A stretch of DNA of 64,000 nucleotides, taken from assembly GCF_000759025.1 (NCBI RefSeq), contig NZ_JPOS01000018.1:124001-188000 (forward strand), read 5' to 3'. Under the pieces are notes generated by a model, which saw nothing but the letters and a program-made list of their open reading frames with translations, was not told the origin of the DNA and made no database searches. The number at the start of each line of letters is the position of its first letter. Positions within the stretch are counted from its first letter, which is position 1. The translations under genes and the position numbers were made by a program. This DNA is from Phaeodactylibacter xiamenensis (GTDB lineage Bacteria > Bacteroidota > Bacteroidia > Chitinophagales > Saprospiraceae). This document shows positions 3,030-64,000 of the stretch, piece by piece.

Positions 3030-3038
3030 AACCGAATT

Positions 3039-3293: not shown

Positions 3294-3358
3294 ACTATTG
3301 AAAATTAAGCTTTCAGAATACATGAATAACACATGCTGCAGTCTTGTAGTTCCCGATA

Positions 3359-4903: not shown

Positions 4904-5182
4904 AGACGTTTCGAGTTTTGGGGTTGTAAACTACGAAAATCTGTGGTGTTGTGCAGGAATCTTTGACCACCGTCAAAAACTAAAACCATGAAGGACCTGC
5001 CCAATCAGAGTTAAGACCTAATTACCTCACCTACTTTCATCTTTCGAAAGAAACCATTATCTTTATTTGGAATACTCTATTATTTTAAATCTCTCTAAAT
5101 ACTCTCTGAGATGAAGACTTACTTACTGAGCAAAGAGGTAGCTGATATTTCGGTTTCCTCCTTGTAAAATCCACACCCGCTC

Positions 5183-5743: not shown

Positions 5744-5766
5744 TCGAACCTCTATCCTTTTAAAAT

Positions 5767-6180
5767 TCAACCATACACCGTAGCCACCAATTGTCGGCTA
5801 CCCCCATGATTGCGAAACTCGCAGAGATAAATCCCCTGCCAGGTGCCCAGATTGAGCCGGCCTTTGGTGATTGGAATAGTCACAGAAGAGCCGATCATTG
5901 CCGCTTTGATGTGGGCGGGCATATCGTCAGGGCCCTCGATGGTGTGGGTGAGAAAGGGGAGGTTTTCCGGCACAACGTGGTTGAAGATGCTTTCGAAGTC
6001 CGTACGCACATCCGGATCGGCATTCTCATTGATGGTGAGGGCAGCGGAAGTGTGTTTGATAAACAGGTGAAGCATGCCGCGGTCGGGCAGGGCACCCTTC
6101 AATTGCCGCTGTACTTCGGCGGTGATGATGTGGTAGCCCCGCTCGAAAGCAGGGAGGGCGAATTCGTATTGTTGTACCAT
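5767..6180 (-). CDS. yjbQ: YjbQ / UPF0047 family protein
   Basis: 137 residues, the typical family size. Signature segments are present: 'HLFIKHTSAALTINENAD', followed by 'DPDVRTDFESIFN', and near the end 'PITKGRLNLGTWQGIYL'. The family forms a trimeric cytoplasmic barrel; E. coli YjbQ has a weak secondary thiamine-phosphate synthase activity, and the true role is unsettled. It ends 12 bases after the TolC-like gene in the same direction, so it may be the last gene of the efflux transcript, though no functional link is known. Confidence 0.9.
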   Translation of the reverse strand: MVQQYEFALPAFERGYHIITAEVQRQLKGALPDRGMLHLFIKHTSAALTINENADPDVRTDFESIFNHVVPENLPFLTHTIEGPDDMPAHIKAAMIGSSVTIPITKGRLNLGTWQGIYLCEFRNHGGSRQLVATVYG

Positions 6181-6191
6181 GCTGTAAAGTT

Positions 6192-7544
6192 TTATCGCAC
6201 CAGCCCCCCAATCAGGCGGATCAGCTCCGTCTCTGTGTTTTTGAGGTTGAAGACCGCATTGAGGCGCTGCTGGGAAGCATTGATGTAACTCACCTGTATA
6301 GTACGATAATCGAAGCTGTTAATCAAGCCCCCCCGGAAGCGCTCCTCGGCAATTTCCAGGTTGCGGCGGGCATTACTCACCAGGCTTGTGGTTACTTCCA
6401 CCAGGCGCTTTTGGGTGTTGTAGGTCGCCAGGGTGTTGGCCAACTGGTTATTGAGGGTGCGCTTGAGGTCGCTAATGTTGAGCTGAGCGATGAGTTCCTC
6501 CTTGCGGGCATTCTCCAACCGGATTTTACGGGCCCCACCATCGTAGATCGGGTAGGAAGCCGAGAGGTTGAGGAACGGCTGAAAGGTCTTGGCGGCAATC
6601 TGCGGGATTTCCTGAATGGTCTCATTCGGGCCGAAACTCAGGGTTTGTTCGCCAAAGGAGATACCGACGTTGTAGGTTGCACCGGCGTTTATCTGTACCG
6701 TAGGCTTGAAGGCTGCTTCCTGCAGACGGGTGTTGATGGACGACAGCTCCCGGTTGATGTACTCGTTGCGCAACTGCACATTATTGCTTTCCATCTCCTG
6801 CTGCAGGTCGGCCAGCTGATAGTCTTCGGCTGCGTAGGAAAGGGTGTCGGTGAGGGTGTAGGAAGTGCCCATATCGTCGATGCCCATCGCCAGGTTAAGG
6901 TTGCGGATGGCGGTTTCGTAAGTATTGATCTGCAGCACGTAGTTGGTGGAATCGTTGAGGTAGGCGTCTTGCGTCTGCAGGATATCGAAGGTGCTCGACT
7001 GCCCAAACTCCTGCCGCACTTCCTGATACGCCACGCGGTCGCGGGAAAGTTCCAGGACTTCCATCAGCACGTCGAGTTGTTCTTGTTGCACCAGGGCATT
7101 GTAATAGGCATTGATGATGGCCTGAATACTGTTTTGCACGGCCAGCTGCTGATTGCTCTGGCTCAGCTCTGCCTGTGTTTCCAGCTGTTCTTTGGTGATC
7201 TGCACCCGGTAGCCATCAAAGAGGATCATGCTGGCCTCTATGCCCGGTGTGATGCCGGTGTTGTAGGTGTTGGCAGCCGTCAGCGGGCCCGCCGGGTTGC
7301 TGAGGTTGCGGTAGTTGTTTTGAGAATTGGCCGTCAGGTTGATGGTCGGGACTTTCCCGGCGATGGCCCAGTCGTCATTGCGCTCCGCAATATCGGCGCG
7401 GGCTTCCGCAATTTTGATCTGGAAGTTGTTCTCCAGCCCCTTTTGAATGGCATCGGACAAGCTAAGGTTTTCCTGTGCCTTTCCCGTAAGGGCAAAAAGC
7501 AGCAGGGCGGGCAGTAGTGCGAGTTGTACTTTCATAGTTGACAT
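6192..7544 (-). CDS. TolC-family outer-membrane efflux channel
   Basis: About 450 residues with a signal peptide ending near 'ALTGKAQ'. Two repeated OEP domains follow, each with long amphipathic helices and the typical 'LSDAIQKGLENNFQIKIAEAR' start (first copy near the mature N-terminus). The C-terminal repeat includes 'EERFRGGLINSFDY' and 'YINASQQRLNAVFNLKNTE', classic for TolC-like channels. The frame is open to 7649, but that would overlap the GtrA gene, and the leader is obvious only from MSTMKVQ (7542-7544) or MKVQ (7533-7535). It completes the three-part pump encoded upstream. Confidence 0.92.
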   Translation of the reverse strand: MSTMKVQLALLPALLLFALTGKAQENLSLSDAIQKGLENNFQIKIAEARADIAERNDDWAIAGKVPTINLTANSQNNYRNLSNPAGPLTAANTYNTGITPGIEASMILFDGYRVQITKEQLETQAELSQSNQQLAVQNSIQAIINAYYNALVQQEQLDVLMEVLELSRDRVAYQEVRQEFGQSSTFDILQTQDAYLNDSTNYVLQINTYETAIRNLNLAMGIDDMGTSYTLTDTLSYAAEDYQLADLQQEMESNNVQLRNEYINRELSSINTRLQEAAFKPTVQINAGATYNVGISFGEQTLSFGPNETIQEIPQIAAKTFQPFLNLSASYPIYDGGARKIRLENARKEELIAQLNISDLKRTLNNQLANTLATYNTQKRLVEVTTSLVSNARRNLEIAEERFRGGLINSFDYRTIQVSYINASQQRLNAVFNLKNTETELIRLIGGLVR

Positions 7545-7623
7545 GGTAGTTTGACGGATCTGCCCGCCCGGCCGTGGCTTCACGGATAGACAGGAATACA
7601 TAATGCTATTTTTTCTCCGCCGC

Positions 7624-8037
7624 TTATATAAACTTGCGTTCAAAGACATATCGCTTGAGGTAAAAGTTGTAAAAGAATACGATGCCCGTAGCGATCAGCT
7701 TGGTTAGGGCCTGGTATTCCATAAAAAAGGCAAACCGGGTCAATGCATAAACAATCCCAGTGTTGATACTGAGCCCCACCACGGAGACCAGGACCGAGAG
7801 CAAAAAAGCCCGGCGGGCTGAGCCCTGCAGCTGAAATACGAAGCGCTTTTGCATCATAAAATTCAGCACAACGGCACAGGAATAGGACACGATATTGGCC
7901 GGCACCGGCGCCCAGTCCTGATAATCCACGAGCCAGAGGTAGAGCAGGAAGTCCACCGAGGTGGCCACTGCGCCCGACATGGCAAATTTGGCTTTCATTT
8001 TTACCAGCTGCGCCAGCGTTTCCTTGTTCAGCCCCAT
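7624..8037 (-). CDS. GtrA-family membrane protein
   Basis: About 137 residues with four predicted transmembrane helices and the GtrA pattern 'FAMSGAVATSVDFLLYLWL' then 'NIVSYSCAVVLNFMMQKRFVF' (shown in parts) and a basic C-terminus 'NFYLKRYVFERKF'. GtrA proteins are thought to help move polyprenyl-linked sugars across the inner membrane. I prefer the ATG at 8035-8037 because AAAGGAG lies six bases upstream; an ATG at 8056-8058 is possible. It sits between the RND pump and TolC genes, an odd place for a sugar flippase-like gene, so the grouping may be co-transcription rather than shared function. Confidence 0.85.
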   Translation of the reverse strand: MGLNKETLAQLVKMKAKFAMSGAVATSVDFLLYLWLVDYQDWAPVPANIVSYSCAVVLNFMMQKRFVFQLQGSARRAFLLSVLVSVVGLSINTGIVYALTRFAFFMEYQALTKLIATGIVFFYNFYLKRYVFERKFI

Positions 8038-8073
8038 GGGTTCTCCTTTTGGCGGCAAAGGTAGCCTTTAAAA

Positions 8074-11000
8074 TCAACCGAGCATAAAGGACAGCGCGCC
8101 GACCACCACCACGACGGTGACCAGCACATACCACAGGAACTCATATCCAGTCTCCCGCCGTACCGCAGGCTCTACCGCTTCGTAGCTCGGCTTCACGCCG
8201 TTCCAGGCATAAGAAGCATAAACCTTGAAGCGGTTCATAATAATGAGCAGCACCGGCAGCAACACCAGAATAACCGCCGTAATGACCAAAAGGCCGAAGG
8301 AGACCGCAATCGCCATCGGAATGAGGAACTGCGCCTGCAGGCTCTTCTCAAACAATAGCGGTGCCAGTCCGGCAAAGGTGGTCACGGTGGTCAGCACAAT
8401 GGGCCGGAAACGCGACAGGCCAGTCTCGTACACCGCGTCCATATGCGAGCGCCCTTCTTCAATCATCGTATTGTAGGTGCTCACAAAAACCAGGGCGTCA
8501 TTCACCAGAATACCGATCAGCGCGATAATGCCCAGGGCGGAGAACAAGCTGATGGGGAGCCCCATGAGCCAGTGCCCCCAGCCTACCCCGATAAACCCAA
8601 ACGGAATCAGCAGGAAGACGAGCAGCGCCTGCCCGACGGAGCGGAACGTCAGCGCAATCACAAAGAACATGAGGGAAAGCACAATGCTAAATACGGTCTG
8701 AATAGATTTGGCTGATTTCTGCTGCTCTCTGTTCTGCCCTTCGTAAATGGCAGAAACGGAACTGTAACCGCTCAGGATTTCCGGGATGATCTCGTCTTGT
8801 AAGCTGGCAGTGACATCGCTTACCGAAACGTCGTTATTTGACACATCGGCCTCAATTTTCACCTCCCGCTTACCATCGATGTGGTTGATGTTGATCACGC
8901 CCCGCTTCAGCTCCAGGGTAGCAATTTCCGAAAGGGGAAACTCCCGCCCGTCCTCGAAGCGGATGCGCATGTCTTTTAGTTTGTTGATGTTGTCGCGGTC
9001 TTCCCGGTCGTAGCGTACCCACACCCGCACTTCATCCTGACCGCGCTGCAGGCGCTGCACTTCGCTGCCGAAGAAACCACTACGCACCTGCCCGACCACA
9101 TCCTGCAGCTTCAGCCCCAGGTATTTACCCTTCTCGGTAAGTTGGATATTGACCTCCCTGAGCCCCTCCTGATTGTTGTCGACGACATCCGCCAGTTCAG
9201 AAAGGCCCTGCATGGCTGCTTTGACTTCTTCGGTAGCCGCCTTGAGCTGAGTGTAATCCTCCCCGATCAGGGAAATGGAAATCGGCTTGCCAAAGGCGGA
9301 GGCAGCGCCAAAGGTGAGCACCTCCGCGGTGGGAATATCGCCTACCATTTGCCGGATCGTATTGGTGACGGCCCGGGCGGTCAGGCTGTCCCGGTTTTCA
9401 CCATCCAGTATGTTTACGCTGATGTTGCCCTGATAGGTAGTGGGGCCAAGGTTGACCTCTACCCGCTCGATGGCCTGTTTGTCGCCATTGAAGTAGTGCT
9501 GGCTCAGGGAGTCATTCGCGCGCCAGGCGGCGTCCTCAATCATTTGCAGTTTGTCCAGAGTGATATGCTCCCGGGTGCCGGCGGGCATTTGCAGCTGTAT
9601 GGTAATGTCGTCCCGCTCAATAATAGGAAAGAAGGTCGTACTGATGATCCCTCCGCCAATAGCGCCGCCGGTAATGACCAGAAGGCCGACCAGGACAGCG
9701 ATGGTAAAAAATTTGTTGTACATGACAAACTTCAGGGTAGGCCCATAGAGCTTGTGGCGCATCCAGTTCATAGCTTGCTCAAAGGCTTGCTGTACCTTGT
9801 TGGTGTCGCGGTCTGGGCTGAGGGCTTTACTGTGGGCTACGTGAGTAGGCAAGATCACCGCTCCTTCAATAAGGGAAAAGATGAGAGAAAAGATCACCAC
9901 AATCGCCATTTGTGAAAAGAAGTCGCCCAGCCGCCCGTCAATGAACAGGAAGGAGGAAAAGGCAAGTACGGTGGTGACGATGGCGGCAAAGACGGCAGGC
10001 AGTACCTGTAGGGTGCCTTCCAGGGCAGCTTTCAGGCGAGGTACTCCCGCTTCGTACTGCTGATAGATGTTTTCGCCAATTACAATCCCGTCATCCACCA
10101 GGATACCGATCACAAGGATCATACCGAACAGGGAAATAACATTAATGGTCACGCCCAGGGCTCCTGCCACCACAAACATGCCGGCAAAGGAGATTGGAAT
10201 GGCAATGGCCACCCAGAACGCCAGCCGCCAGTGCAGGAACATGGCCAGCAGCACCAGCACGATACCGAAGCCCAGCAGCCCGTTCTCCATCAGCAAGTCG
10301 ATCCGCTGCCGGAGCACATCGGAGCCATCGCGAATGACAGTGGCTTCGATGATATCATTTTTTTCATTAAAATCCCGGACGTATTCCTGCACCTTATCCG
10401 TGATGGAAATCATGTCCTCTTCCAGGGTATTCTGTACCGTGACGACCACCGAAGGTTCTCCGTTCAGGTAGCTGCGGTTGGGCGAGTCGGCCCAGCGGTC
10501 TGAAAGGTCGGCGATTTCATAGAGGCGCACCACACTGCCTTCAGGCGTGGTCTTCACAATGATGTCGCGCAGCCCTTCGGCATAGTACTCTTTATTGCGG
10601 GCACGCACCAACAGCTCTTCGTCTTCCCCCTTGATGGTACCGCCGGTGATTTCAATATTGGCAGCCCGTACCGCCAGTGTCGCCTGCTGAAAAGTCAGCC
10701 CGTAAGCCCGCAGGTCCTTTTCACGGAAAGCAATCTCAATTTCCTCTTCCGGGAAACCGCTCAGGCTCACCTTAGAGATGCCCTCCATCTGCCGGAGGTC
10801 TTCCTCTACCTGCCGGCCGTAGCGCTTCAGGGTCTTGAGGTTCACATCCCCACTAAGTGCAAAGCTGATGGCAAAGCCCAGGTTTTCCTGAATATACACC
10901 ACCGGTGGCTCCAGCCCTACAGGAAAAGAACTGATCTGGTCCACAGCATTGCGCACATCCACGAGCACGTCATCAGTATTGAAGCCTTTGAGCACTTCCA

Positions 11001-11280
11001 CTGTGATGCTGCCACTGTTTTCGCTCGAAACGGAAGTATAGCGCTCCACACCGGTCACCCCTTTGAGGTTTTCCTCGATGCGCTTAACGACGCCTTCCTC
11101 CATTTCTTCCGGGGACGAACCAGGGTAGACCAATTGTATGCTGATAATCCGGCTGGGCACCTCAGGGAAGAAGGTGGACTTCATGTTGAATAGCCCGGCA
11201 ATGCCGAGCACAAAAAGCCCGACCATGATCAGGTTGGCGGCTACCGGAAATTTGATAAAGTAGTTGACAAATCTTTGCAT
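8074..11280 (-). CDS. RND-family efflux pump inner-membrane subunit (AcrB/MexB-like)
   Basis: 1,068 residues, the normal size of a hydrophobe/amphiphile RND transporter. It begins with a first helix 'FPVAANLIMVGLFVLG', a large periplasmic porter loop, helices 2-6 carrying the proton-relay pair in 'GILVDDGIVIGENIYQ' (two aspartates, helix 4), a second large loop, and helices 8-12 with 'GILVNDALVFVSTYN'. It exports drugs, bile-like compounds or metabolites using the proton gradient, working with the adaptor 8 bases upstream and TolC downstream. Substrate cannot be read from sequence. The MarR-like gene at the head of the cluster is the likely regulator. Confidence 0.95.
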   Translation of the reverse strand: MQRFVNYFIKFPVAANLIMVGLFVLGIAGLFNMKSTFFPEVPSRIISIQLVYPGSSPEEMEEGVVKRIEENLKGVTGVERYTSVSSENSGSITVEVLKGFNTDDVLVDVRNAVDQISSFPVGLEPPVVYIQENLGFAISFALSGDVNLKTLKRYGRQVEEDLRQMEGISKVSLSGFPEEEIEIAFREKDLRAYGLTFQQATLAVRAANIEITGGTIKGEDEELLVRARNKEYYAEGLRDIIVKTTPEGSVVRLYEIADLSDRWADSPNRSYLNGEPSVVVTVQNTLEEDMISITDKVQEYVRDFNEKNDIIEATVIRDGSDVLRQRIDLLMENGLLGFGIVLVLLAMFLHWRLAFWVAIAIPISFAGMFVVAGALGVTINVISLFGMILVIGILVDDGIVIGENIYQQYEAGVPRLKAALEGTLQVLPAVFAAIVTTVLAFSSFLFIDGRLGDFFSQMAIVVIFSLIFSLIEGAVILPTHVAHSKALSPDRDTNKVQQAFEQAMNWMRHKLYGPTLKFVMYNKFFTIAVLVGLLVITGGAIGGGIISTTFFPIIERDDITIQLQMPAGTREHITLDKLQMIEDAAWRANDSLSQHYFNGDKQAIERVEVNLGPTTYQGNISVNILDGENRDSLTARAVTNTIRQMVGDIPTAEVLTFGAASAFGKPISISLIGEDYTQLKAATEEVKAAMQGLSELADVVDNNQEGLREVNIQLTEKGKYLGLKLQDVVGQVRSGFFGSEVQRLQRGQDEVRVWVRYDREDRDNINKLKDMRIRFEDGREFPLSEIATLELKRGVININHIDGKREVKIEADVSNNDVSVSDVTASLQDEIIPEILSGYSSVSAIYEGQNREQQKSAKSIQTVFSIVLSLMFFVIALTFRSVGQALLVFLLIPFGFIGVGWGHWLMGLPISLFSALGIIALIGILVNDALVFVSTYNTMIEEGRSHMDAVYETGLSRFRPIVLTTVTTFAGLAPLLFEKSLQAQFLIPMAIAVSFGLLVITAVILVLLPVLLIIMNRFKVYASYAWNGVKPSYEAVEPAVRRETGYEFLWYVLVTVVVVVGALSFMLG

Positions 11281-11288
11281 GGTAGAGA

Positions 11289-12473
11289 CTATTCTGCGCT
11301 GCCCAGTTGGTCCTTAGGCCCGGTCTTTGCCGATTGTGCGTTTTTAGATTTTTGTTGCGTGCTGATGCGGACTTTCATGCCATCAAATGCGTCCGGTATG
11401 GGCTGCGCCAGAATGGGCGTACCATCTTTCAATCCCCGGATAATCGCAGACTCATCAGTCATTTTTACCACCTGTACTTCTTCCATTCGGAGAATAGAAT
11501 CCTGTACAACGAAGACCCCCCGCTGATCATTGAGCAGGTTGCGGGGCAGCGCAAAAGCATTGTCAATACTGCTGGCAACCACATCGCCGCGCAGGTACAT
11601 ATTTTCCTTCAGGTCGCTGCCGCTCACGGCGATGAACACCCGTACCGTCTGCGTACCTGCATCCACCTGATCGCTGATGCGGCGGATTTTGCCGTTCCAG
11701 CTGCCTTCAATATCTTCTGAGTATAGCTCCACCGGGTTGCCTACGGCCAGGTACTTCAGGTCGCGCAGGGCAACGGTGGCTTCCAGTTCGTAGCTGCCGG
11801 TGCTCATCAGTTCGCCCAGTTTCTGCCCGGCCCGCACCACCGCACCCGGGTTGATGGAGGCAGCCGTAATCACCCCGCTAAAAGGTGCGTACAGCGTATA
11901 CTTGTCCAGCCGCTCCTCCTGGCTTTTGATGGTGTAGTACTGGCTGTACAGATTGCGGGAAGCAATGAAATACTTTTCCTGATCATTCAAAGCCTCCGGG
12001 AAAGCTTTGATGGGGGCTTCCACCTCAAAATTATCGAGATAGTCCTTCCAGTGCTCATAGCTTTCCGGGTAGTCAATCTTCAGGTCGGGCATCAGCTGAG
12101 TGATGGCGTTGAGGAGGTTGCTTTTTTGCGAAAGCAGGGAAAGTTTAGCTTCCTCCTGATTGACTTTGATCAGTAAGGCTCCTTTCGGGAAATAAGTGCC
12201 GACTTTGAAGGAGCGCTCCGTTTTTTCGAGGGTGCCTGTCACTTCTGAGAAAAGGTCAATTTTGTCATAGGCCGACAGTTCCCCCTGTACATTCAGGGTT
12301 GTGGGAATGCTGCCCAGGCGCACATGCATAGTATCGACCATTTTCACTTTGGTGCCAGCCACTTTGGGGCGGGGCGGTTGTTTCTGATTGCTCAGGAAGC
12401 GAGACAGGGCAAATGCACCGATGAGGAGGACGAGCCCTGCAAACATGATAATTCTTCTGGCGGTGATGCTCAT
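11289..12473 (-). CDS. RND efflux periplasmic adaptor (HlyD/MFP family)
   Basis: 394 residues with a single N-terminal membrane anchor ('IIMFAGLVLLIGAFALSRF'), then a lipoyl-like half ('YDKIDLFSEVTGTLEKT'), a helical hairpin, the second lipoyl half ('LYAPFSGVITAASINPGAVV') and a beta-barrel domain ('LREL..VGNPVELYS' type region). It bridges the inner-membrane pump and TolC. It is encoded 8 bases before the pump, so the two are surely co-transcribed. The C-terminal tail is Lys/Gln/Ser-rich and probably disordered. An operator-like palindrome lies 32 bases upstream of its start, at 12506-12519. Confidence 0.93.
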   Translation of the reverse strand: MSITARRIIMFAGLVLLIGAFALSRFLSNQKQPPRPKVAGTKVKMVDTMHVRLGSIPTTLNVQGELSAYDKIDLFSEVTGTLEKTERSFKVGTYFPKGALLIKVNQEEAKLSLLSQKSNLLNAITQLMPDLKIDYPESYEHWKDYLDNFEVEAPIKAFPEALNDQEKYFIASRNLYSQYYTIKSQEERLDKYTLYAPFSGVITAASINPGAVVRAGQKLGELMSTGSYELEATVALRDLKYLAVGNPVELYSEDIEGSWNGKIRRISDQVDAGTQTVRVFIAVSGSDLKENMYLRGDVVASSIDNAFALPRNLLNDQRGVFVVQDSILRMEEVQVVKMTDESAIIRGLKDGTPILAQPIPDAFDGMKVRISTQQKSKNAQSAKTGPKDQLGSAE

Positions 12474-55428: not shown

Positions 55429-56064
55429 ATGACATCGTACTCACCAACCGCTCAATTTTACGATACAATCTTCGCTCGCGCAGAAAAAGACCAACAAGAA
55501 GCGTTCCTCCGGCAATTGTTTGAACGAGACGCTTCCCTATGTGCAAGTTTTTGGGCTTTTATCAACCCACTACCACAAAGCAGTATAGTGGAAGTCGAGG
55601 CGCTGTCTGCCGAAATAGCCAAAATGCAGGAAAAGACGCTGCACTACCCCTGGGATATTCTATTTGAGATGGACCCTGTAGCGGATGAGTACAGTTCAGA
55701 GCTTACGGACCTCATCGACCGGGAAATCATAGGACCCTATCAGCTAAAAATGGAAGTAGCTTGCCGCACGGGAGATTTGTGCTCAGCCCTAAGCTATTTG
55801 CGTATTATCGAAAAAGGCACCAACGTCGATTGGGAGAACGCCGAAGAACCCGGCAGCCATCATATTGCTGAGGTAAAAGAGCATATCTGTTATCAATTTG
55901 ATTTTCTGAGAAGCTGCTTTCTCGACTATATTTTTTCTGTAGACGCGGTCAGTCAGGGCATCACACAGGCGAAAACGTATCAGGCTGACGCCAATGGTTT
56001 TTTTGACTACTCTGTAGAATGGGGAGGAGTTTTGGAGGTATTTGAAGACCGGCTCCTGGAGTAG
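55429..56064 (+). CDS. Hypothetical protein of unknown family
   Basis: 211 residues, acidic, no signal peptide or membrane helix. Predicted mostly helical, with an even spread of Glu/Asp/Leu and aromatic patches ('LHYPWDILFEMDPVADEYS', 'FDYSVEWGGVLEVFEDRLLE'). Six cysteines do not form a recognisable motif. Followed by its own intrinsic terminator, so it is probably transcribed alone. I do not recognise it. It lies at the left edge of the CRISPR region, but no evidence ties it to that system. Confidence 0.6.
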   Translation: MTSYSPTAQFYDTIFARAEKDQQEAFLRQLFERDASLCASFWAFINPLPQSSIVEVEALSAEIAKMQEKTLHYPWDILFEMDPVADEYSSELTDLIDREIIGPYQLKMEVACRTGDLCSALSYLRIIEKGTNVDWENAEEPGSHHIAEVKEHICYQFDFLRSCFLDYIFSVDAVSQGITQAKTYQADANGFFDYSVEWGGVLEVFEDRLLE

Positions 56065-56072
56065 CGGTAAAT

Positions 56073-56109
56073 GCAAAAGCCCCGGAGTATTAAATCCGAG
56101 GCTTTTTGC
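56073..56109 (+). terminator. Intrinsic terminator after the hypothetical gene
   Basis: GCAAAAGCCCCGG, 10-base loop, CCGAGGCTTTTTGC, beginning 9 bases after the stop codon. The A-run on the left and T-run on the right could serve both strands. It separates the upstream gene from the CRISPR area. Confidence 0.75.
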
Positions 56110-56175
56110 GGTCCGGACGGGAAAGCCGGAAAACACACCTAAGCCTTTGTCTATCAATTGAAAAGGATTAAATAT

Positions 56176-56334
56176 ATGAAGCGTAGTGCAAAGATTGGTG
56201 CAAAAAACTGCAAAAAGGGAAACCCATTAATGCGTCAATCACATTGCCCTATTGCACTCAAAATAGTCACATCACGTGGGGATAAAGTTCAATTTTGTAA
56301 TTTAGAGGCAGGTATCAAACCGGCATACGGTTGA
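56176..56334 (+). CDS. Possible small basic protein (52 residues) upstream of CRISPR array 1
   Basis: ATG at 56176 with AAAAGG about ten bases upstream; stop at 56332-56334. The product begins MKRSAKIGAKNCKKGN and ends LEAGIKPAYG, with three cysteines (NCKK, SHCPI, QFCNL) and a basic N-terminus. No family recognised. A hairpin with a T-tract starts inside its last codons (56327), so a short transcript would end right at the stop. It may be a real small protein, a decayed gene end, or chance. Confidence 0.3.
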   Translation: MKRSAKIGAKNCKKGNPLMRQSHCPIALKIVTSRGDKVQFCNLEAGIKPAYG

Positions 56335-56352
56335 AGTTTTAACCGTTTTTTT
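56327..56352 (+). terminator. Short intrinsic terminator upstream of CRISPR array 1
   Basis: ACGGTT, an 8-base loop, AACCGT and then six further Ts. It would stop rightward transcription from the left before it reaches array 1, which begins 97 bases later, so array 1 must have its own start in 56353-56448. Confidence 0.6.
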
Positions 56353-56448
56353 GTCCTAGTAGAATACATTATCAAAAGATACATACAAATGCAATTTTTA
56401 CATCCTGCTGTATACCAATGTCTTTTGAAGAAAAAAAGCACTTCACGG

Positions 56449-56692
56449 GTCGGAGAGGCCTCTGGCTCGAGAGGTGACTACGACAAAATCTGGCCAATCT
56501 ATCGCTACGTAAGCGATGTCGGAGAGGCCTCTGGCTCGAGAGGTGACTACGACTATAGTTCTCGAACCACACGGGCGAATTTGGACGTCGGAGAGGCCTC
56601 TGGCTCGAGAGGTGACTACGACTCCGAATCCTCTTACAGCCTCGCTACCGCGTACTGTCGGAGAGGCCTCTGGCTCGAGAGGTGACTACGAC
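56449..56692 (+). CRISPR. CRISPR array 1: 4 identical 36-nt repeats, 3 spacers (type VI-B)
   Basis: Repeats at 56449-56484, 56518-56553, 56587-56622 and 56657-56692, starting GTCGGAGAGGCCTCTGG and ending GGTGACTACGAC. Spacers are 33, 33 and 34 nt. Repeat ends GTCG/CGAC pair, and CCTC/GAGG forms an inner stem, as in Cas13b repeats. All four copies look identical, so the array is well kept. Rightward transcription is supported by an intrinsic terminator beginning 3 bases after the last repeat, and by likeness to Cas13b repeats read in crRNA direction. No clear promoter was found. Confidence 0.95.
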
Positions 56693-56694
56693 AG

Positions 56695-56738
56695 AAAGAG
56701 GGCAAGTACAGTTCCATTTGTACTTGCCCTCTTTTTTT
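56695..56738 (+). terminator. Strong intrinsic terminator directly after array 1
   Basis: A 13-base perfect stem (GAGGGCAAGTACA with its complement, 56698-56710 and 56719-56731) extended by AAA/TTT, an 8-base loop and a seven-T tract. It begins 3 bases beyond the final repeat. It fixes array 1 as a separate rightward transcription unit and shields it from array 2, which faces it. Confidence 0.92.
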
Positions 56739-56934
56739 GAGTTCAACTAATTGGTACTCTCGCTTCCTGCTTTCTTAACCGTTGCGAAACTATCCCAGAT
56801 TGGTCGAATCTGGAATTGCGATTTGACCTATTCTGGTATACATCTCCCGTCAAACCTTTCTGAAGACTCAGGACCCGAACCCAAAGTCCCATCTTTCCTT
56901 TTCAGAATACCCCGACGATCAAGACAATATTACT
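56739..56934. other. Spacer region between the two convergent arrays
   Basis: 196 bases without a supported gene. Contains a perfect 7-base hairpin, CCAGATT/AATCTGG with a 5-base loop (56795-56813). It lacks a T-tract on the leftward side, so it is at best a weak stop for array 2 transcripts. Confidence 0.4.
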
Positions 56935-58053
56935 GTCCTAGCCACTCCCCAAACCGGGAGCCTATCGGACTTGAGAGCGATTATTACTAGAGCGTACATC
57001 AAAAGTGCCCTAGTCACTCCTCAAACCGGGAGCCTATCGGACCAACCACAAGCTGGCCCTCCGTGTGAACCAGGTTAGTCCTAGTCACTCCTCAAACCGG
57101 GAGCCTATCGGACCAACCTGTTCGAGTCAGGGTATAGAACTAATTATTGTCCTAGTCACTCCTCAAACCGGGAGCCTATCGGACCAACCTGTTCGAGTCA
57201 GGGTATAGAACTAATTATTGTCCTAGTCACTCCTCAAACCGGGAGCCTATCGGACAAAAAGAGTGCGAAGGCTGCACAGTACATGAAAAAGAGTCCTAGT
57301 CACTCCTCAAACCGGGAGCCTATCGGACGAATTCAATATGTCGCAGCGTTTTTTGATAGGATGCGTCCTAGTCACTCCTCAAACCGGGAGCCTATCGGAC
57401 TTATGATGTGGTAGAGAAGGCACTGGCGCATATCCGTCCTAGTCACTCCTCAAACCGGGAGCCTATCGGACCAGCCTTTTGAGTTAGCTATTGGCACGTG
57501 AAACTTATTGTCCTAGTCACTCCTCAAACCGGGAGCCTATCGGACCAATAAAGATTGAAAAAGACACAAAAAGAATTGGCGTCCTAGTCACTCCTCAAAC
57601 CGGGAGCCTATCGGACACCTCATCTAAAAGCGACGATAAAAAAGAGCCCAATAGTCCTAGTCACTCCTCAAACCGGGAGCCTATCGGACTCAATCTGGTG
57701 GCAGTGCTCATCCGGTACGGCTTCCGTCCTAGTCACTCCTCAAACCGGGAGCCTATCGGACTCGAAGAGGTGACGATGCCGAGCGCAAACAAAGACGGTC
57801 CTAGTCACTCCTCAAACCGGGAGCCTATCGGACGCTAAGTACAACAGCGTTGAGTTGTGCCCATGTAGTTGTCCTAGTCACTCCTCAAACCGGGAGCCTA
57901 TCGGACATATTGATAGTCTTCGCCCCGAAGTACCTGCACTTCGTGTCCTAGTCACTCCTCAAACCGGGAGCCTATCGGACCTAAAGCCTTGGAATCCAGC
58001 CGGGTATATGAATATTAGTCCTAGTCACTCCTCAAACCGGGAGCCTATCGGAC
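56935..58053 (-). CRISPR. CRISPR array 2: 16 repeats of 36 nt, 15 spacers (type VI-B, leftward)
   Basis: Plus-strand repeat starts GTCCTAGTCACTCC and ends GAGCCTATCGGAC; first copy at 56935-56970, last at 58018-58053. Spacers are 35-38 nt. The two leftmost repeats carry changes (two substitutions in 56935-56970, one in 57007-57042); all others look identical. Repeat decay marks the old, leader-distal end, so the leader is on the right beside cas13b and the array reads leftward. The reverse complement aligns with array 1's repeat at 26 of 36 positions. Spacers at 57114-57148 and 57185-57219 are identical, a unit duplication. Confidence 0.95.
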
Positions 58054-58464
58054 AGGTAAAATGTCTAATATGAAAATCGTGTAGTAAGAGTGAGTACTTC
58101 CAATACTTAACTTTACACTTTCCATACTCGATAGAATTAATTACTGAAAAATTTAAATTCTAAGAATAATTTTCAAAATTCTCACTTGGTAAAAACAGAG
58201 GCCTGTCGCCAACTTCCCTATGGCTCACTTGCCAATCTGGTTTAACTCTAAGCCTTCGCTCCAGAGTAGAGAAAATTAATCAAATACCTGAGATTTTTCT
58301 AAAAATGCACATAAAAAATATATATTTACCAAAATCACATTATCAGTGAATACCGCACCCTCCTGACTACCATTGTATGGCACGGAAAGTGGCTTGTATC
58401 CGGTTTCCTAACCTGCGCAGCTGTAAGGATACAGTCTAATTTTTACCCAAACCAAATTTTTGAA
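58054..58464. promoter_or_regulatory. Leader of array 2 and upstream region of cas13b
   Basis: A 411-base AT-rich region between array 2 (leftward) and cas13b (rightward). No gene is supported. On the minus strand TTTTG (complement of 58174-58178), 18 bases, then TAAATTTT (complement of 58148-58155) comes close to the Bacteroidota -33/-7 pattern (TTTG ... TAnnTTTG, one mismatch) and would start the pre-crRNA ~85 bases before the first repeat. For cas13b, TAATTTTT at 58437 is a weak -7 candidate without a good -33. Both are tentative. Confidence 0.35.
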
Positions 58465-61400
58465 ATGACAAATACGCCGAAACGCCGAACGCTTCACAGA
58501 CACCCATCCTACTTTGGGGCCTTTCTGAATATCGCACGTCACAATGCATTTATGATCATGGAGCATTTGTCTACCAAATATGATATGGAGGACAAAAACA
58601 CCCTGGATGAAGCTCAGCTCCCAAATGCCAAACTATTTGGCTGCCTGAAGAAAAGATATGGCAAGCCAGATGTTACAGAAGGTGTCTCGCGCGACTTAAG
58701 AAGATACTTCCCATTCCTTAATTACCCTCTATTCCTACACCTAGAAAAGCAGCAAAACGCGGAACAGGCTGCTACCTATGACATCAATCCTGAAGATATA
58801 GAGTTTACGCTTAAAGGCTTTTTCAGGTTGCTCAACCAAATGCGTAACAACTACTCGCATTACATTTCTAACACAGACTACGGTAAGTTTGACAAGCTCC
58901 CCGTACAAGATATTTACGAAGCCGCTATTTTCAGGCTCCTCGATAGGGGAAAACACACTAAAAGGTTTGACGTCTTTGAAAGTAAGCATACAAGGCACCT
59001 TGAAAGCAACAATAGTGAGTATAGGCCCAGAAGCCTTGCAAACTCTCCAGATCATGAAAACACGGTTGCTTTTGTCACCTGTCTCTTCCTGGAACGCAAA
59101 TACGCCTTTCCTTTTCTGAGCAGACTGGATTGTTTTAGAAGTACTAATGATGCAGCAGAAGGAGATCCCCTAATCCGGAAAGCAAGCCATGAGTGCTATA
59201 CTATGTTTTGTTGCCGGCTTCCACAACCGAAACTGGAAAGCAGTGATATTCTGCTAGACATGGTCAATGAACTTGGGCGGTGCCCGAGTGCTTTGTACAA
59301 CTTGTTGTCAGAAGAAGATCAAGCACGCTTTCACATCAAGCGAGAGGAGATAACCGGTTTTGAAGAAGACCCTGACGAAGAGCTCGAACAAGAGATTGTA
59401 TTAAAACGGCACAGTGACCGTTTCCCTTACTTTGCACTTCGCTATTTTGATGATACAGAGGCTTTTCAAACCTTACGGTTTGATGTATACCTGGGCAGGT
59501 GGAGGACCAAACCGGTTTATAAGAAACGGATCTATGGTCAAGAGCGGGATAGAGTGCTTACCCAATCTATCCGAACCTTTACAAGACTAAGCCGGCTTCT
59601 TCCTATCTACGAAAACGTAAAGCATGATGCTGTCCGACAGAATGAAGAGGATGGCAAATTGGTAAACCCCGATGTAACATCCCAGTTTCACAAAAGCTGG
59701 ATCCAAATAGAAAGTGATGATCGTGCTTTCCTCTCAGACAGAATTGAGCACTTTTCGCCTCATTATAATTTCGGAGATCAGGTCATCGGTTTGAAGTTTA
59801 TCAATCCTGATCGGTATGCCGCTATTCAAAATGTATTTCCAAAGCTACCAGGAGAGGAGAAGAAAGATAAAGATGCAAAACTCGTTAATGAAACAGCAGA
59901 TGCAATAATTAGCACCCATGAGATCCGTAGCTTGTTTTTATACCACTACCTAAGTAAAAAGCCTATTTCAGCAGGGGACGAGAGAAGGTTTATTCAGGTA
60001 GATACGGAGACTTTTATAAAGCAGTATATAGATACGATCAAACTGTTTTTTGAAGATATCAAATCAGGCGAACTACAACCTATTGCCGATCCGCCCAACT
60101 ACCAAAAGAATGAACCCTTACCCTATGTGCGCGGAGATAAAGAGAAGACCCAGGAAGAGCGGGCTCAGTATCGAGAGCGGCAGAAGGAAATTAAAGAAAG
60201 AAGGAAAGAACTTAATACGCTGCTTCAGAATAGGTATGGCCTGTCTATTCAGTACATTCCCAGCCGGCTTAGAGAATACTTGTTGGGTTATAAAAAGGTC
60301 CCCTATGAAAAGCTAGCGCTTCAGAAACTTAGAGCGCAGCGTAAGGAAGTCAAAAAGAGGATCAAGGATATCGAAAAAATGCGCACCCCCAGAGTAGGTG
60401 AACAGGCAACCTGGCTCGCAGAGGATATCGTTTTTTTGACTCCGCCAAAGATGCACACGCCTGAAAGGAAAACTACCAAACACCCACAGAAGCTCAATAA
60501 TGATCAGTTCCGGATCATGCAATCTTCCCTGGCGTACTTTTCCGTAAATAAGAAAGCAATTAAAAAGTTCTTTCAGAAGGAGACGGGGATCGGTCTGTCA
60601 AATAGAGAAACAAGCCATCCGTTTCTGTATAGGATCGACGTTGGGAGGTGCAGGGGTATTTTAGACTTCTACACGGGCTACCTGAAATACAAAATGGACT
60701 GGCTAGATGATGCAATCAAAAAAGTTGATAATCGTAAACATGGCAAGAAGGAGGCTAAAAAGTATGAAAAATATCTACCCTCATCCATTCAGCATAAGAC
60801 TCCTCTTGAATTAGACTACACCCGCCTGCCTGTTTATCTACCAAGAGGCTTATTTAAAAAGGCAATTGTCAAAGCGTTAGCTGCACATGCCGATTTCCAG
60901 GTCGAACCAGAGGAAGACAATGTAATTTTCTGTCTGGACCAGCTCTTGGATGGCGATACCCAAGATTTCTATAATTGGCAACGGTACTATCGCTCTGCGC
61001 TAACGGAAAAAGAAACTGATAACCAGCTTGTCCTCGCCCATCCCTACGCAGAGCAAATATTAGGTACAATTAAGACACTGGAAGGTAAGCAGAAGAACAA
61101 TAAGCTTGGGAACAAGGCGAAACAAAAAATCAAGGATGAACTTATAGATCTAAAAAGAGCAAAACGGAGGTTACTAGACCGGGAACAATACCTACGGGCT
61201 GTACAAGCCGAAGATCGTGCACTATGGCTAATGATACAAGAGCGGCAAAAGCAGAAAGCTGAACATGAGGAAATCGCCTTTGATCAGCTCGACCTTAAAA
61301 ACATCACTAAAATCCTAACAGAGTCTATTGATGCCCGACTCAGAATACCGGATACCAAAGTAGATATTACGGATAAGCTTCCGCTCCGTAGATATGGAGA

Positions 61401-61860
61401 TCTGCGCCGTGTAGCTAAAGATCGCAGACTGGTCAATCTCGCCTCTTACTACCATGTTGCAGGTTTATCCGAAATCCCCTATGATCTTGTGAAGAAAGAA
61501 CTGGAAGAGTACGATCGCCGTAGAGTGGCCTTTTTTGAGCACGTTTATCAGTTTGAAAAAGAAGTATATGACCGCTATGCCGCAGAACTTAGAAACGAAA
61601 ATCCGAAAGGTGAGAGTACTTACTTCAGTCATTGGGAGTACGTAGCTGTTGCGGTAAAGCACTCTGCTGATACTCATTTTAATGAACTCTTCAAAGAGAA
61701 AGTTATGCAATTGCGTAACAAGTTCCACCACAATGAATTCCCCTATTTCGACTGGTTATTGCCAGAGGTAGAAAAGGCGAGTGCCGCTCTATACGCGGAT
61801 AGAGTCTTTGATGTGGCAGAGGGCTACTACCAGAAAATGCGTAAATTAATGCGACAGTAA
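58465..61860 (+). CDS. cas13b: CRISPR-associated RNA-guided ribonuclease Cas13b (type VI-B effector)
   Basis: 1,131 residues, normal Cas13b size. It is a single-protein effector that processes its own pre-crRNA and, once bound to matching RNA, cuts RNA with a composite HEPN site. Both HEPN motifs are present near the two ends, as is specific to Cas13b: 'QMRNNYSHYISN' (R127-N-x3-H132) and 'LRNKFHHNEFPYFDW' (R1084-N-x3-H1089). The N-terminus 'HPSYFGAFLNIARHNAFMIMEHL' (pattern) is the family's opening. The centre is Lys/Arg/Glu-rich, with long charged helices (e.g. residues ~555-640 and ~865-920) suited to crRNA binding. Located 411 bases right of array 2; 13 bases before the accessory gene. AT-richer than the core genome. 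Confidence 0.97.
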   Translation: MTNTPKRRTLHRHPSYFGAFLNIARHNAFMIMEHLSTKYDMEDKNTLDEAQLPNAKLFGCLKKRYGKPDVTEGVSRDLRRYFPFLNYPLFLHLEKQQNAEQAATYDINPEDIEFTLKGFFRLLNQMRNNYSHYISNTDYGKFDKLPVQDIYEAAIFRLLDRGKHTKRFDVFESKHTRHLESNNSEYRPRSLANSPDHENTVAFVTCLFLERKYAFPFLSRLDCFRSTNDAAEGDPLIRKASHECYTMFCCRLPQPKLESSDILLDMVNELGRCPSALYNLLSEEDQARFHIKREEITGFEEDPDEELEQEIVLKRHSDRFPYFALRYFDDTEAFQTLRFDVYLGRWRTKPVYKKRIYGQERDRVLTQSIRTFTRLSRLLPIYENVKHDAVRQNEEDGKLVNPDVTSQFHKSWIQIESDDRAFLSDRIEHFSPHYNFGDQVIGLKFINPDRYAAIQNVFPKLPGEEKKDKDAKLVNETADAIISTHEIRSLFLYHYLSKKPISAGDERRFIQVDTETFIKQYIDTIKLFFEDIKSGELQPIADPPNYQKNEPLPYVRGDKEKTQEERAQYRERQKEIKERRKELNTLLQNRYGLSIQYIPSRLREYLLGYKKVPYEKLALQKLRAQRKEVKKRIKDIEKMRTPRVGEQATWLAEDIVFLTPPKMHTPERKTTKHPQKLNNDQFRIMQSSLAYFSVNKKAIKKFFQKETGIGLSNRETSHPFLYRIDVGRCRGILDFYTGYLKYKMDWLDDAIKKVDNRKHGKKEAKKYEKYLPSSIQHKTPLELDYTRLPVYLPRGLFKKAIVKALAAHADFQVEPEEDNVIFCLDQLLDGDTQDFYNWQRYYRSALTEKETDNQLVLAHPYAEQILGTIKTLEGKQKNNKLGNKAKQKIKDELIDLKRAKRRLLDREQYLRAVQAEDRALWLMIQERQKQKAEHEEIAFDQLDLKNITKILTESIDARLRIPDTKVDITDKLPLRRYGDLRRVAKDRRLVNLASYYHVAGLSEIPYDLVKKELEEYDRRRVAFFEHVYQFEKEVYDRYAAELRNENPKGESTYFSHWEYVAVAVKHSADTHFNELFKEKVMQLRNKFHHNEFPYFDWLLPEVEKASAALYADRVFDVAEGYYQKMRKLMRQ

Positions 61861-61873
61861 AAACAGAACGATC

Positions 61874-62509
61874 ATGGATGAAGGGACGCTTTTGATAAAC
61901 ATTTTGACCGGCCCCGCAAAAGACAAACCGCTATGGTTTGAATTCATAGGCATCGGTGTGACTATCAGTTTAGCAGCTTGGGGCTATTTGCGTGCTTTTG
62001 GGGCTTGGGAAAAACAGAAAAAGCGAGAATTAGAGCTTCAGCACAAACAGAGAAAGCTTGAAATCAAGCTCCAATTTGAGAAGCAGCGGTATGAACATGA
62101 ATTGAAAGCGGCAGAGGGGGTATGGCCTTTGCTAGCCTACTTTTCTTTGTGGGAAAATGACAAGAGCGTATTTGTAAAGCGTGGAGACCATTGGTACTTT
62201 CGCCAAGAGCAGGGGCGCGAATACATTTTAGCGCTTTCTGAAAACTTCTTCAATAAAGGGTATGGTGTTTTTATGCCTGGCCCTGCCAAGGAAAACCTCT
62301 ATCATTTCCGTGGTATGATCTACAAACTCCTTCAGGATTCCAAATCTAATGGCAATGATAATAATGAAGTTCTTCTTAAGAACCAAAGCATGGTTCAAAA
62401 GAAGGACAAACAGGCAGCCCCCAATAAGAAAAGTGTAGAGCAACTTAAAGATGAGATCAATGCCAGTCTTAGGAATATGCTGCAAAAGTCAGAGATTGAT
62501 CTGGATTAG
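61874..62509 (+). CDS. Membrane-anchored coiled-coil protein, candidate Csx28-type accessory of Cas13b
   Basis: 211 residues, starting 13 bases after the cas13b stop, so surely co-transcribed. One membrane helix at ~21-39 ('WFEFIGIGVTISLAAWGYL'), a basic/acidic coiled coil at ~45-80, a mixed domain at ~83-157 ('HWYFRQEQGREYILALSENF', 'NKGYGVFMPG', 'YHFRGMIYKLL') and a charged tail. Type VI-B2 loci carry Csx28, a ~180-residue protein with one N-terminal helix and a divergent HEPN-like part that enhances Cas13b immunity; size, topology and position agree. I see no convincing R-x4-6-H in the C-terminal domain (only RELELQH, R51-H57, in the coiled coil). Homology is inferred from arrangement, not alignment. 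Confidence 0.5.
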   Translation: MDEGTLLINILTGPAKDKPLWFEFIGIGVTISLAAWGYLRAFGAWEKQKKRELELQHKQRKLEIKLQFEKQRYEHELKAAEGVWPLLAYFSLWENDKSVFVKRGDHWYFRQEQGREYILALSENFFNKGYGVFMPGPAKENLYHFRGMIYKLLQDSKSNGNDNNEVLLKNQSMVQKKDKQAAPNKKSVEQLKDEINASLRNMLQKSEIDLD

Positions 62510-62582
62510 TTAGTAGAGAATAAAAACCTATACTGTACATCTTCAATGGTCTTTATCCCTCTTAGATAAAAACCCAACCCAA

Positions 62583-63194
62583 ATGAAACTACCCATCCTG
62601 GCAATTGCGACCCTTCTATTCGCCCTTCCAGCCTTTGCCCAATCCCCGTATGATTTCGACAGCGAGCTTTCTGACATCGCCCGGTCCTTCAGAAATGATA
62701 TCATGGATGAGTATCAGTGTCAGCGGCTGAAAGGAGATGCCGGGGATCTCGCTAACGAAATTGAAGACGCAATAGAGGAAGACGACGAGTATTCCGATGC
62801 CGAGATGCGTCAACTCGGACAGCTAAAGAAGGAAGCAAAAGCCTTGGAACAGTTCATTGCAGCCGTAGGGAATTGTGCAAACTACCTTCCAAGTATATCG
62901 GAATTCCATTTAGCGAATCAAAGAGTAAGGGCTGATGTTTCGTATGTGTCCAAAGACCAGTACTGTGTAGATTTTGTGGTGGCTGGGATCGGCAACTATG
63001 TGGCGTACCTGGCAGTCAATAGCTCCCCTAATAATTATACCGTTTCCTACAAATGGAAAGCACCAGGTGGAATGGACAGTGGAAATGGTACTATGGGGCT
63101 TCCAAAGTCCAGCGTGAGGCACATATATAACAATAGAGAGGAGGTCAATAAAACCCGGATTTCTGTTTATGGGGTGAGTTGCAAGGAATTTTAG
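62583..63194 (+). CDS. Secreted protein of unknown function
   Basis: 203 residues. A clear signal peptide 'LPILAIATLLFALPAFAQ' is cut near residue 20. The first half of the mature chain is acidic and helical ('NEIEDAIEEDDEYSDAEMRQ'), the second half beta-rich ('AYLAVNSSPNNYTVSYKWKA'). Four cysteines ('YQCQR', 'GNCAN', 'QYCVD', 'VSCKEF') may form disulphides. No lipobox. I do not recognise a family. It follows the Csx28-like gene by 73 bases on the same strand; periplasmic location makes a direct CRISPR role unlikely. Confidence 0.6.
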   Translation: MKLPILAIATLLFALPAFAQSPYDFDSELSDIARSFRNDIMDEYQCQRLKGDAGDLANEIEDAIEEDDEYSDAEMRQLGQLKKEAKALEQFIAAVGNCANYLPSISEFHLANQRVRADVSYVSKDQYCVDFVVAGIGNYVAYLAVNSSPNNYTVSYKWKAPGGMDSGNGTMGLPKSSVRHIYNNREEVNKTRISVYGVSCKEF

Positions 63195-63251
63195 TGACCC
63201 TACTTCTTTTTATCTATTGATCCACCACCGAACAAGACCCGATGTACTGCA

Positions 63252-63800
63252 ATGGGTGATTTTAACTTCAAAAGCCGCGATCAGATTGAAGCCCTGCTTA
63301 AGGATGCTTACAGCACGACTACGACCCAGGGCCTGCTGAGTATGATTGAGAGCATAAAGCAGGAAAGGGATCCTTTCTTTTTAACCTTGGCTGAGCTGGA
63401 TCAGATTTTCCGCTGGAAGCTAAGAGGGCAGTATGGCCGGCAACAAAGCCAACGGTCTCTCATCACAAACGAGAATGCAAGGTTAATTACCCAAACGACT
63501 TTCAGCTTTACCAATGCAAGCGAGAGTCTTGAAATAAAATCCAAAATACTCATCCTTACTGTTCTACCTGGAGTGGGCGTTCCAGTCGCCTCTGCAATTT
63601 TGGCTATGGTATTTCCGGAGTCCTATGGTGTAATAGATACCAGGAACTGGAAGGTATTATATGGAGAGGACAAGAACTACTTTACCCACAACGACTATAT
63701 TTTATACCTAACCGACCTTAGGGCGCTCGCCCATAAATGGAGCTTTACTGTACAGCAGATAGATTTAGCGCTTTGGAAATATTATGAGATTTTGTCATAA
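63252..63800 (+). CDS. Helix-hairpin-helix (HhH-GPD-like) protein
   Basis: 182 residues, cytoplasmic. Residues ~102-130 read 'TVLPGVGVPVASAILAMV' followed by 'PESYGVIDTRNWKVLYG'. The L-P-G-V-G hairpin followed some 20 residues later by an Asp (D129) is the arrangement in HhH-GPD DNA glycosylases such as MutY, Nth and Ogg, where that Asp is catalytic. The N-terminal part 'LDQIFRWKLRGQYGRQ' is also seen in uncharacterised relatives. The C-terminal 'QIDLALWKYYEIL' ends the domain. No Fe-S cysteines. Glycosylase, nuclease or simple DNA-binding roles are all open. Confidence 0.6.
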   Translation: MGDFNFKSRDQIEALLKDAYSTTTTQGLLSMIESIKQERDPFFLTLAELDQIFRWKLRGQYGRQQSQRSLITNENARLITQTTFSFTNASESLEIKSKILILTVLPGVGVPVASAILAMVFPESYGVIDTRNWKVLYGEDKNYFTHNDYILYLTDLRALAHKWSFTVQQIDLALWKYYEILS

Positions 63801-64000
63801 TTGAGTCTAGTAAGATTGGCACCTCCGGCTTGGAGCGATTATCCGGTTCATAAGTTGAATGTGGAAACCATACTAAGCTCAAGCCGATTGTTTGAACCTG
63901 ACAGCTTCCAAAAGCTTTCTTTTTTACCCTGATCACTGCCATAATTCCTGCAGACTATCTTCCTATTGAGCGGGCTATCAATGCGGCAGATACAGACTTT
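63801..64000. other. Right edge: no gene supported
   Basis: 200 bases to the window end. A short leftward frame (63745-63942) overlaps the end of the HhH gene and looks like chance. A gene may begin or end just outside. Confidence 0.3.

Follow-up and report, generated by a model that had tools for sequence, protein, structure and literature searches.

Compensated stem changes between the repeats of two CRISPR arrays beside a single cas13b gene in Phaeodactylibacter xiamenensis

Background

A single cas13b gene in Phaeodactylibacter xiamenensis is accompanied by two CRISPR arrays, the 36-nt repeats of which differ from one another. Here we ask how one effector could use both of them, and what the differences between the repeats reveal about the features that Cas13b recognizes. 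The DNA analysed was a stretch of 64,000 nucleotides of this genome, referred to as the window, and all coordinates without a locus name are positions in it. Based upon the sequence alone, an earlier note had claimed that ten positions differ between the two repeats, that six of these form three paired swaps which keep the hairpin, and that this points to selection on RNA structure.

We propose that the arrays are diverged relatives which both feed one VI-B2 Cas13b, and that the two-stem shape of the repeat is kept and a few bases are read while the stems drift in compensated pairs; to this reading we assign a probability of about 0.8. The principle is not new. Compensatory base changes in the stems of CRISPR repeats were published in 2007 by Kunin et al. 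(PMC1896005), and the window is a further instance of them. Its value lies in being a natural paired comparison, with two guide scaffolds beside one effector, that separates shape (the compensated stems) from letters (U19 and A32, usually also U18 and U20). It also suggests specific tests of how strict Cas13b is about the loop, a matter of interest for guide design. The part most worth testing is the exceptional loop of array 1, the swaps among the ten differences being otherwise a clear case of a known kind.

Homologue sample

A Cas13b profile was searched in six partly overlapping genome sets of 395, 199, 397, 349, 158 and 200 genomes, of which 4, 4, 7, 15, 14 and 9, respectively, had a match; in a scan across 84,980 species genomes, nine Cas13b loci could be confirmed. 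The retained sample comprises 47 arrays with 44 distinct repeats from 39 loci, the window included. Ten arrays of low complexity or non-VI-B character were dropped (two in L041, the second of L044, L052 and L099, the first of L068, L100 and L106, and those of L055 and L069), as were L063, whose contig is that of L036, together with L067 and L104, which share one contig and gave a poor consensus. A usable VI-B array was not called in L037, L042, L053, L056, L065, L070 and L105. Loci L057-L060 have weak Cas13 matches (E in the 1e-7 range) and were retained for their VI-B-like repeats, and L094-L096, the other arrays of the window's own genome, were held separate. The repeat of L111 is 35 nt long; its frame was set by hand and it was excluded from the ungapped alignments, which contain 43 repeats with the window and 41 repeats, from 37 other loci, without it.

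The locus

The region is a type VI-B2 CRISPR locus with two arrays, cas13b and csx28. Array 1 (56449-56692, plus strand) consists of four identical 36-nt repeats separated by spacers of 33, 33 and 34 nt. Array 2 (56935-58053, minus strand) has sixteen 36-nt repeats and fifteen spacers of 35-38 nt, one of which, 35 nt long, is present twice in neighbouring positions (57114-57148 and 57185-57219). Repeat homology and the degenerate copies at its low end suggest that array 2 is read on the minus strand; the copies at 56935 and 57007 carry two and one substitutions, respectively, and 56935 is probably the oldest end. Between the convergent arrays, directly behind array 1, lies a 16-nt inverted repeat without mismatches and, after it, a run of T (56695-56734, plus strand); together they are probably an intrinsic terminator.

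The gene cas13b (58465-61860, plus strand) codes for a protein of 1131 aa that matched NF038190.1 (E 1.1e-206) and the PADLOC Cas13b model (E 1.2e-212). It possesses two HEPN motifs (R-x4-H), R127/H132 and R1084/H1089, which are invariant across 15 aligned Cas13b proteins. It is followed by csx28 (61874-62509, plus strand), specifying a VI-B2 accessory protein of 211 aa with matches to NF040556.1 (E 1.1e-14; 54.8 bits versus a cut-off of 50) and PADLOC Csx28 (E 2.2e-49). This is the only Cas13b match in the genome (7.87 Mb, 164 contigs), and a pattern covering both repeats, with up to three mismatches allowed, occurred genome-wide at 4 forward and 16 reverse positions, all in this locus. A search of Rfam with 55500-59500 gave seven matches, each under the gathering score of its own family, and the window's Cas13b was not found in the viral contigs and plasmids searched.

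The VI-B2 system described for Porphyromonas gingivalis (PMC13187072) resembles the window in its cas13b and csx28 genes, its 36-nt hairpin repeats and, as predicted for array 1, a leader hairpin at the first repeat. Compared with that system, as far as the available part of its description goes, the window differs in having two convergent arrays with repeats identical at 26 of 36 positions, array 2 being upstream of cas13b on the opposite strand, in the repeat ends GTC..GAC, and in spacers of 33-38 nt rather than 30 nt.

Comparison of the two repeats

On recounting, the repeats of the two arrays do differ at ten positions (4, 7, 12, 13, 15, 18, 20, 24, 25 and 33), and all three of the paired swaps claimed earlier are seen, at 4:33 (G-C/C-G), 12:25 (C-G/U-A) and 13:24 (U-A/C-G). 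None of the ten pairs counted (1-4/33-36, 9:30 and 10-14/23-27) is changed on one side only; 15:22 and 7:30, which form in the fold of array 1 alone, are changed one-sidedly and lost in array 2. At least three Watson-Crick swaps arose in 46 of 200,000 random mutants of array 1 carrying ten substitutions (P 0.00023, about 2e-4); with six of the substitutions required to fall in the stems, the count was 26 of 200,000. The observation is therefore correct and exceeds chance. When folded, the two repeats have in common an outer stem (1-4/33-36) and an inner stem (10-14/23-27). To these the fold of array 1 adds pair 15:22 and a short helix at 6-7/30-31, its energy being -15.6 kcal/mol and that of array 2 -12.5 kcal/mol. 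Taken singly, neither fold has more than a modest z-score (-2.12 for array 1, -1.75 for array 2).

Each window repeat has the other as its nearest relative (26/36 identical positions; next best 23 and 22), and the two have in common states that are seen not at all or once among the other 41 repeats, e.g. G9, G5, C3 and G34. This suggests that two related arrays diverged, rather than that they had two unrelated origins.

Arrays with different repeats occur in six of the 39 loci, and among these the window is the most diverged, with 10 differences versus 1-4. A compensated swap within one locus has precedent: in L101 and L102 the arrays on either side of cas13b differ by a U-A/C-G swap at 12:25, probably a single event, both genomes (G1435 and G1434) belonging to one genus. 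Loci L048, L060 and L066 have one-sided pair changes only, one of which breaks 9:30. A literature search on paired Cas13b arrays and their repeats returned no such case among the matches listed, which is weak evidence. As regards the layout of L101 and L102, two or three arrays flank cas13b with repeats 1-4 letters apart, and a 175-aa gene adjoining cas13b in L102 had no match in Pfam.

Covariation among Cas13b loci

The structure ((((....((((((........)))))..)..)))) was imposed on the 43 aligned repeats, where 91.6% of its cells are paired. It collected 48 changes affecting both sides of a pair, against a mean of 14.9 in shuffled alignments (0 of 500 reached 48) and a maximum of 17 when the structure was slid along the alignment. 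Removal of the window repeats left 39 such changes among 41 repeats, against 12.9 shuffled and a slid maximum of 17. The covariation score was 0.356, versus 0.231 for the best slid version (+1). Without a supplied structure, RNAalifold recovered 1-4/33-36 and 11-14/23-26, and not 9:30 and 10:27.

By pair, the both-side changes in the 41 repeats numbered 14 at 13:24, nine at 9:30, six at 12:25, five at 14:23 and none at 4:33. Among all 528 column pairs, 13:24 ranked first by MI-APC and second by covariation, 9:30 first by covariation and fifth by MI-APC, and 12:25 fifth by covariation and 22nd by MI-APC; the upper part of the covariation list also has several column pairs that are not in the structure, 14:24 being third. 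When the set of 41 was thinned to 19 sequences the shuffle P values were 0.003 (13:24), 0.008 (9:30), 0.009 (14:23) and 0.12 (12:25), and with nine sequences all four pairs were non-significant. The proposal that these repeats are under selection for RNA structure consequently holds for the inner stem, which is well supported through 13:24 and less strongly through 12:25 taken alone. At 4:33 it has no backing from the homologues, since none of the 41 changes both sides and the swap rests on one locus; for this pair the outcome goes half way towards the refutation that the earlier note had proposed.

Pair 9:30, to which neither the earlier note nor the single folds had pointed, has G-C in each of the two window arrays; in other loci U-A or A-U predominates. 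In the crystal structure of Cas13bt3, A(-9) is described as pairing with U(-30) (PMC7613696), and the covariation seen here agrees with it. Eight of the nine repeats with A9-U30 also have G7, as expected for the A-U-G base triple of that structure (PMC7613696).

A covariance model built without the window gave array 2 a score of 23.9 bits and array 1 20.8 bits, with weak and rough E-values of 0.0099 and 0.049; the matches listed comprised 15 of the 16 copies in array 2 and two of the four in array 1. In the other CRISPR loci of the same genome (L094-L096) no array was matched by this model, which found one non-array place in L096 (15.2 bits, E 0.8).

The likeness to the cases reported by Kunin et al. 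(PMC1896005), as far as the available part of that paper describes them, lies in compensated stem changes that leave the stem-loop intact, and applies to the inner stem and 9:30, not to 4:33. Their changes were seen across repeat clusters from many genomes, whereas those of the window are found also between the arrays of one locus.

Repeat ends and Cas1-Cas2 modules

In the 41 other repeats pair 4:33 is G-C in 40 and G-U in one, and stem 1 is paired in 172 of 172 cells over the 43 repeats. Other VI-B repeats mostly begin with GTTG and end with CAAC; those of the window begin with GTC and end with GAC. A possible but less probable explanation, alternative to RNA pairing for this one stem, is that the outer complementarity and the 4:33 swap were kept for a Cas1-Cas2 integrase acting in trans and needing similar inverted DNA ends. 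The Cas13b locus itself contains no Cas1 or RT-Cas1, and the three Cas1 genes of the genome are on other contigs (C39, C80 and C81) than the window (C18). They belong to a I-B system (L094), a Cas6b-Cas1-Cas2 module (L095) and a Cas1-Cas2 module (L096). The last has a Cas6b gene nearby and an RT gene just upstream, for which the best PADLOC matches were RT-TIR_XII and RT-Protease_XI, with two retron RT families among the 25 matches listed.

Out of 18 end letters, the closer of the two repeat variants in L096 has 16 in common with array 1 and 14 with array 2, and the other variant 15 and 13; for L095 the values are 14 and 11. The best of 42 other VI-B repeats shares only 11 of 18. The window's spacers (33-34 and 35-38 nt) fall within the ranges of L096 (31-37 nt) and L095 (34-38 nt), while in 32 of the 38 other VI-B loci the median period is 65-66, which means spacers of about 30 nt. 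The likeness of the ends fits, indirectly, with spacer uptake in trans by the L096 module, which would account at the DNA level for the complementary ends and for the change at 4:33. A II-C module has been reported to carry out adaptation in trans for a VI-B array (PMC8092290). As in that case, the window has a VI-B array without a cas1 of its own that may use a co-resident module; its possible partner is a predicted Cas1-Cas2 module with a Cas6b gene nearby, and the partner described in PMC8092290 is II-C.

On the other side, stem 1 is formed by four Watson-Crick pairs in the Cas13bt3 crystal (PMC7613696) and is, as noted, always paired in our repeats. The leaders have no clear similarity to those of L095 and L096, the best comparison (array 2 versus L095) being equalled by 6 of 300 shuffles. 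In G504 and G230, moreover, the ends of the VI-B repeats differ from those of co-resident arrays with 47-nt repeats, which are probably II-C. The two reasons for outer complementarity, RNA pairing and integration, can both hold.

The possibility that array 1 is simply an array of one of the genome's other CRISPR loci was considered and rejected; the ends are similar, but the whole repeats agree at only 17-20 of 36 positions and the VI-B model misses those arrays. The arrays of L096 (about 2030-4150) and L095 (from about 4575) seem to be broken up by inserts that resemble each other, are a few hundred bases long, start inside a repeat and contain GATCCCGGTT; these are possibly a mobile or repeat element.

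Bases read by letter and the loop

U19 and A32 are constant in all 43 repeats. U18 and U20 are present in 42, including all 41 outside the window, the sole exception being array 1 with C18 and C20. Its loop is therefore CUCG instead of the usual UUUG, with U19, G21 and A32 kept; G21, also in the loop, is likewise nearly constant outside the stems. Array 2 has UUU at 18-20 and array 1 does not, UUU being a regularity of the 41 other repeats and not known as a published definition. The earlier note had nominated GTGACTA (26-32) and AGGC (8-11) as the bases read by sequence. Across the 47 arrays this stands in part, G10, C11, G26 and A29 being frequent and A32 constant, and fails at columns 8, 9, 28, 30 and 31, which vary; the list also passed over the loop bases (U19, as well as U18, U20 and G21) and the exceptional loop of array 1.

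The contacts described in the Cas13bt3 crystal are with the flipped-out bases C(-8), G(-28) and A(-32) and, in the loop, with A(-17), U(-19) and U(-20), the last of these bonded to a lysine (PMC7613696). Within the present repeat set A32, U19 and U20 of these contacts are conserved, and 8, 17 and 28 are not. Stem 1, stem 2, 9:30 and the contacted A32, U19 and U20 of the Cas13bt3 crRNA thus correspond to paired or conserved columns here. Differences are that Cas13bt3 is a miniature Cas13b (PMC7613696), that its C(-8) and G(-28) contacts are not conserved in our set, and that array 1 deviates in its loop, at 18 and 20.

Under the reading we prefer, that of diverged arrays serving one effector, both arrays would make spacer-repeat guide RNAs for the single Cas13b, a scheme in which we infer transcription, processing and loading. 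Each repeat would be bound by Cas13b as a hairpin of two stems (1-4/33-36 and about 10-15/22-27), pair 9:30 lying in the internal loop, and few bases would be read directly, namely U19, A32 and normally U18 and U20. With the shape held and few bases read, the letters of the stems would be expected to drift in compensated pairs. The CUCG loop may be tolerated because U19, G21 and A32 are kept, and perhaps favoured because it allows the leader to mask the first repeat.

Leader-repeat hairpins

In the P. gingivalis VI-B2 system a leader-repeat hairpin, which was probed there, keeps the first repeat from processing (PMC13187072). For array 1 of the window such a hairpin is predicted: the last 12 nt of the leader (56409-56448, plus strand), AGCACTTCACGG, would pair with the first repeat. 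The computed probability of the first repeat's own hairpin fell from 1.0 alone to 0.0 with 10-100 nt of leader, and dinucleotide-shuffled leaders did as well in 0, 6, 4 and 8 of 1000 cases at 20, 30, 40 and 60 nt. Within the predicted fold, CGG of the leader and base G1 of the repeat pair with the loop CUCG. Restoring UUUG brought the repeat hairpin back to 0.79-0.86 at 30-60 nt of leader (0.10 at 20 nt), while U18 by itself gave 0.13-0.20 at 30-60 nt and U20 by itself 0.0. Array 1 is accordingly predicted to form a leader-repeat hairpin that disrupts its first repeat more than scrambled leaders do.

On the leader side of array 2 (58054-58093, minus strand) the prediction gives a hairpin only at leader lengths of about 40-50 nt, and the outcome depends on length, 579, 43 and 290 of 1000 shuffled leaders being as good at 30, 40 and 60 nt. 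We applied the leader test to 44 of the 47 arrays, leaving out L111 and two others whose contigs include less than 40 nt of leader sequence. At a leader length of 40 nt the combined P was 0.0012, which would be in line with the published enrichment of leader hairpins. The hairpin value of the first repeat was below 0.1 in 26 of 44 arrays with the leader and in 13 of 44 already without it. Repeats are also disrupted (hairpin value below 0.5) by their own preceding spacers, in 9 of 15 cases in array 2 and one of three in array 1, so all such hairpin predictions should be taken with caution. Clean specificity of each leader for its own repeat was looked for and not seen: leader 1 is disruptive for repeat 2 too, at several lengths, as leader 2 partly is for repeat 1.

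A bolder version, which we consider doubtful, is that one Cas13b accepts two repeat families co-adapted to different partners, CUCG locking the first repeat and a trans Cas1-Cas2 setting both ends. If true, Cas13b would be constrained almost only by shape together with U19 and A32. More generally, the results suggest that the repeat may be under three pulls, from effector, leader and spacer integrase.

It seems improbable that array 1 is a decayed or decoy array and not a working source of Cas13b guides, its loop having lost UUUG. The suspicion arises since C18 and C20 occur in none of the 41 other repeats, since position 20 is the one bonded to lysine in Cas13bt3 (PMC7613696), and since the array has three spacers only, for which blastn found nothing credible in 50,697 phage records (24 records matched, lowest E 3 among the 20 listed). 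Yet the larger array 2 is likewise without a credible match in the same records (one record, E 0.3), and array 1 does not have the appearance of a relic. Its four repeats are identical, with intact stems and with U19, G21 and A32 kept, and they score 20.8 bits against a model of other VI-B repeats; a terminator-like hairpin stands directly behind them, and few shuffled leaders equal the leader-repeat hairpin predicted in front. That the paired swaps are an accident of chance or alignment is very improbable indeed, for although only two sequences are compared, their single-fold z-scores are modest and 4:33 lacks support from homologues, so many swaps are expected at P 0.0002 and the 41 other repeats covary at 13:24 and, less strongly, at 12:25; 4:33, taken alone, may be such an accident.

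Spacers and adaptation genes of other VI-B loci

The inner 30 nt of either repeat had no exact match in IMG/VR. When the spacers of array 1 were compared with the locus's own cas region (58301-63900), the best ungapped matches covered 18-19 of 33-34 letters, giving no sign of autoregulation.

The spacer lengths of the window, 33-34 and 35-38 nt, are outside the usual value of about 30 nt (period 66), which is usual and not defining. Six of the 38 other loci (L047, L049, L098, L111, L112 and L113) have a median period of 69-72 and form, together with the window, a class of VI-B loci with long spacers of about 33-38 nt, not 30. Cas1 was not found in the genomes of four of them (G1243, G1281, G1461 and G1506), some of which are incomplete drafts. 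The other two are in genomes with RT-Cas1 beside a VI-B array (G1389 and G1559).

A 2019 survey with 236 Cas13b proteins found RT-Cas1 only with Cas13a, according to the available part of that work (PMC6753606), and a search of later literature for RT-Cas1 with Cas13b returned none among the matches listed. In our sample the VI-B loci of L111 and G1389 appear to be linked to an RT-Cas1 fusion and Cas2. Those of G1389 (L144, 1-4382, and L098) adjoin an array that shares its repeat with the array ending the cas13b contig. In L111 (G1559; 2883-11596) a fusion of 750 aa and Cas2 are located between the VI-B array and cas13b.
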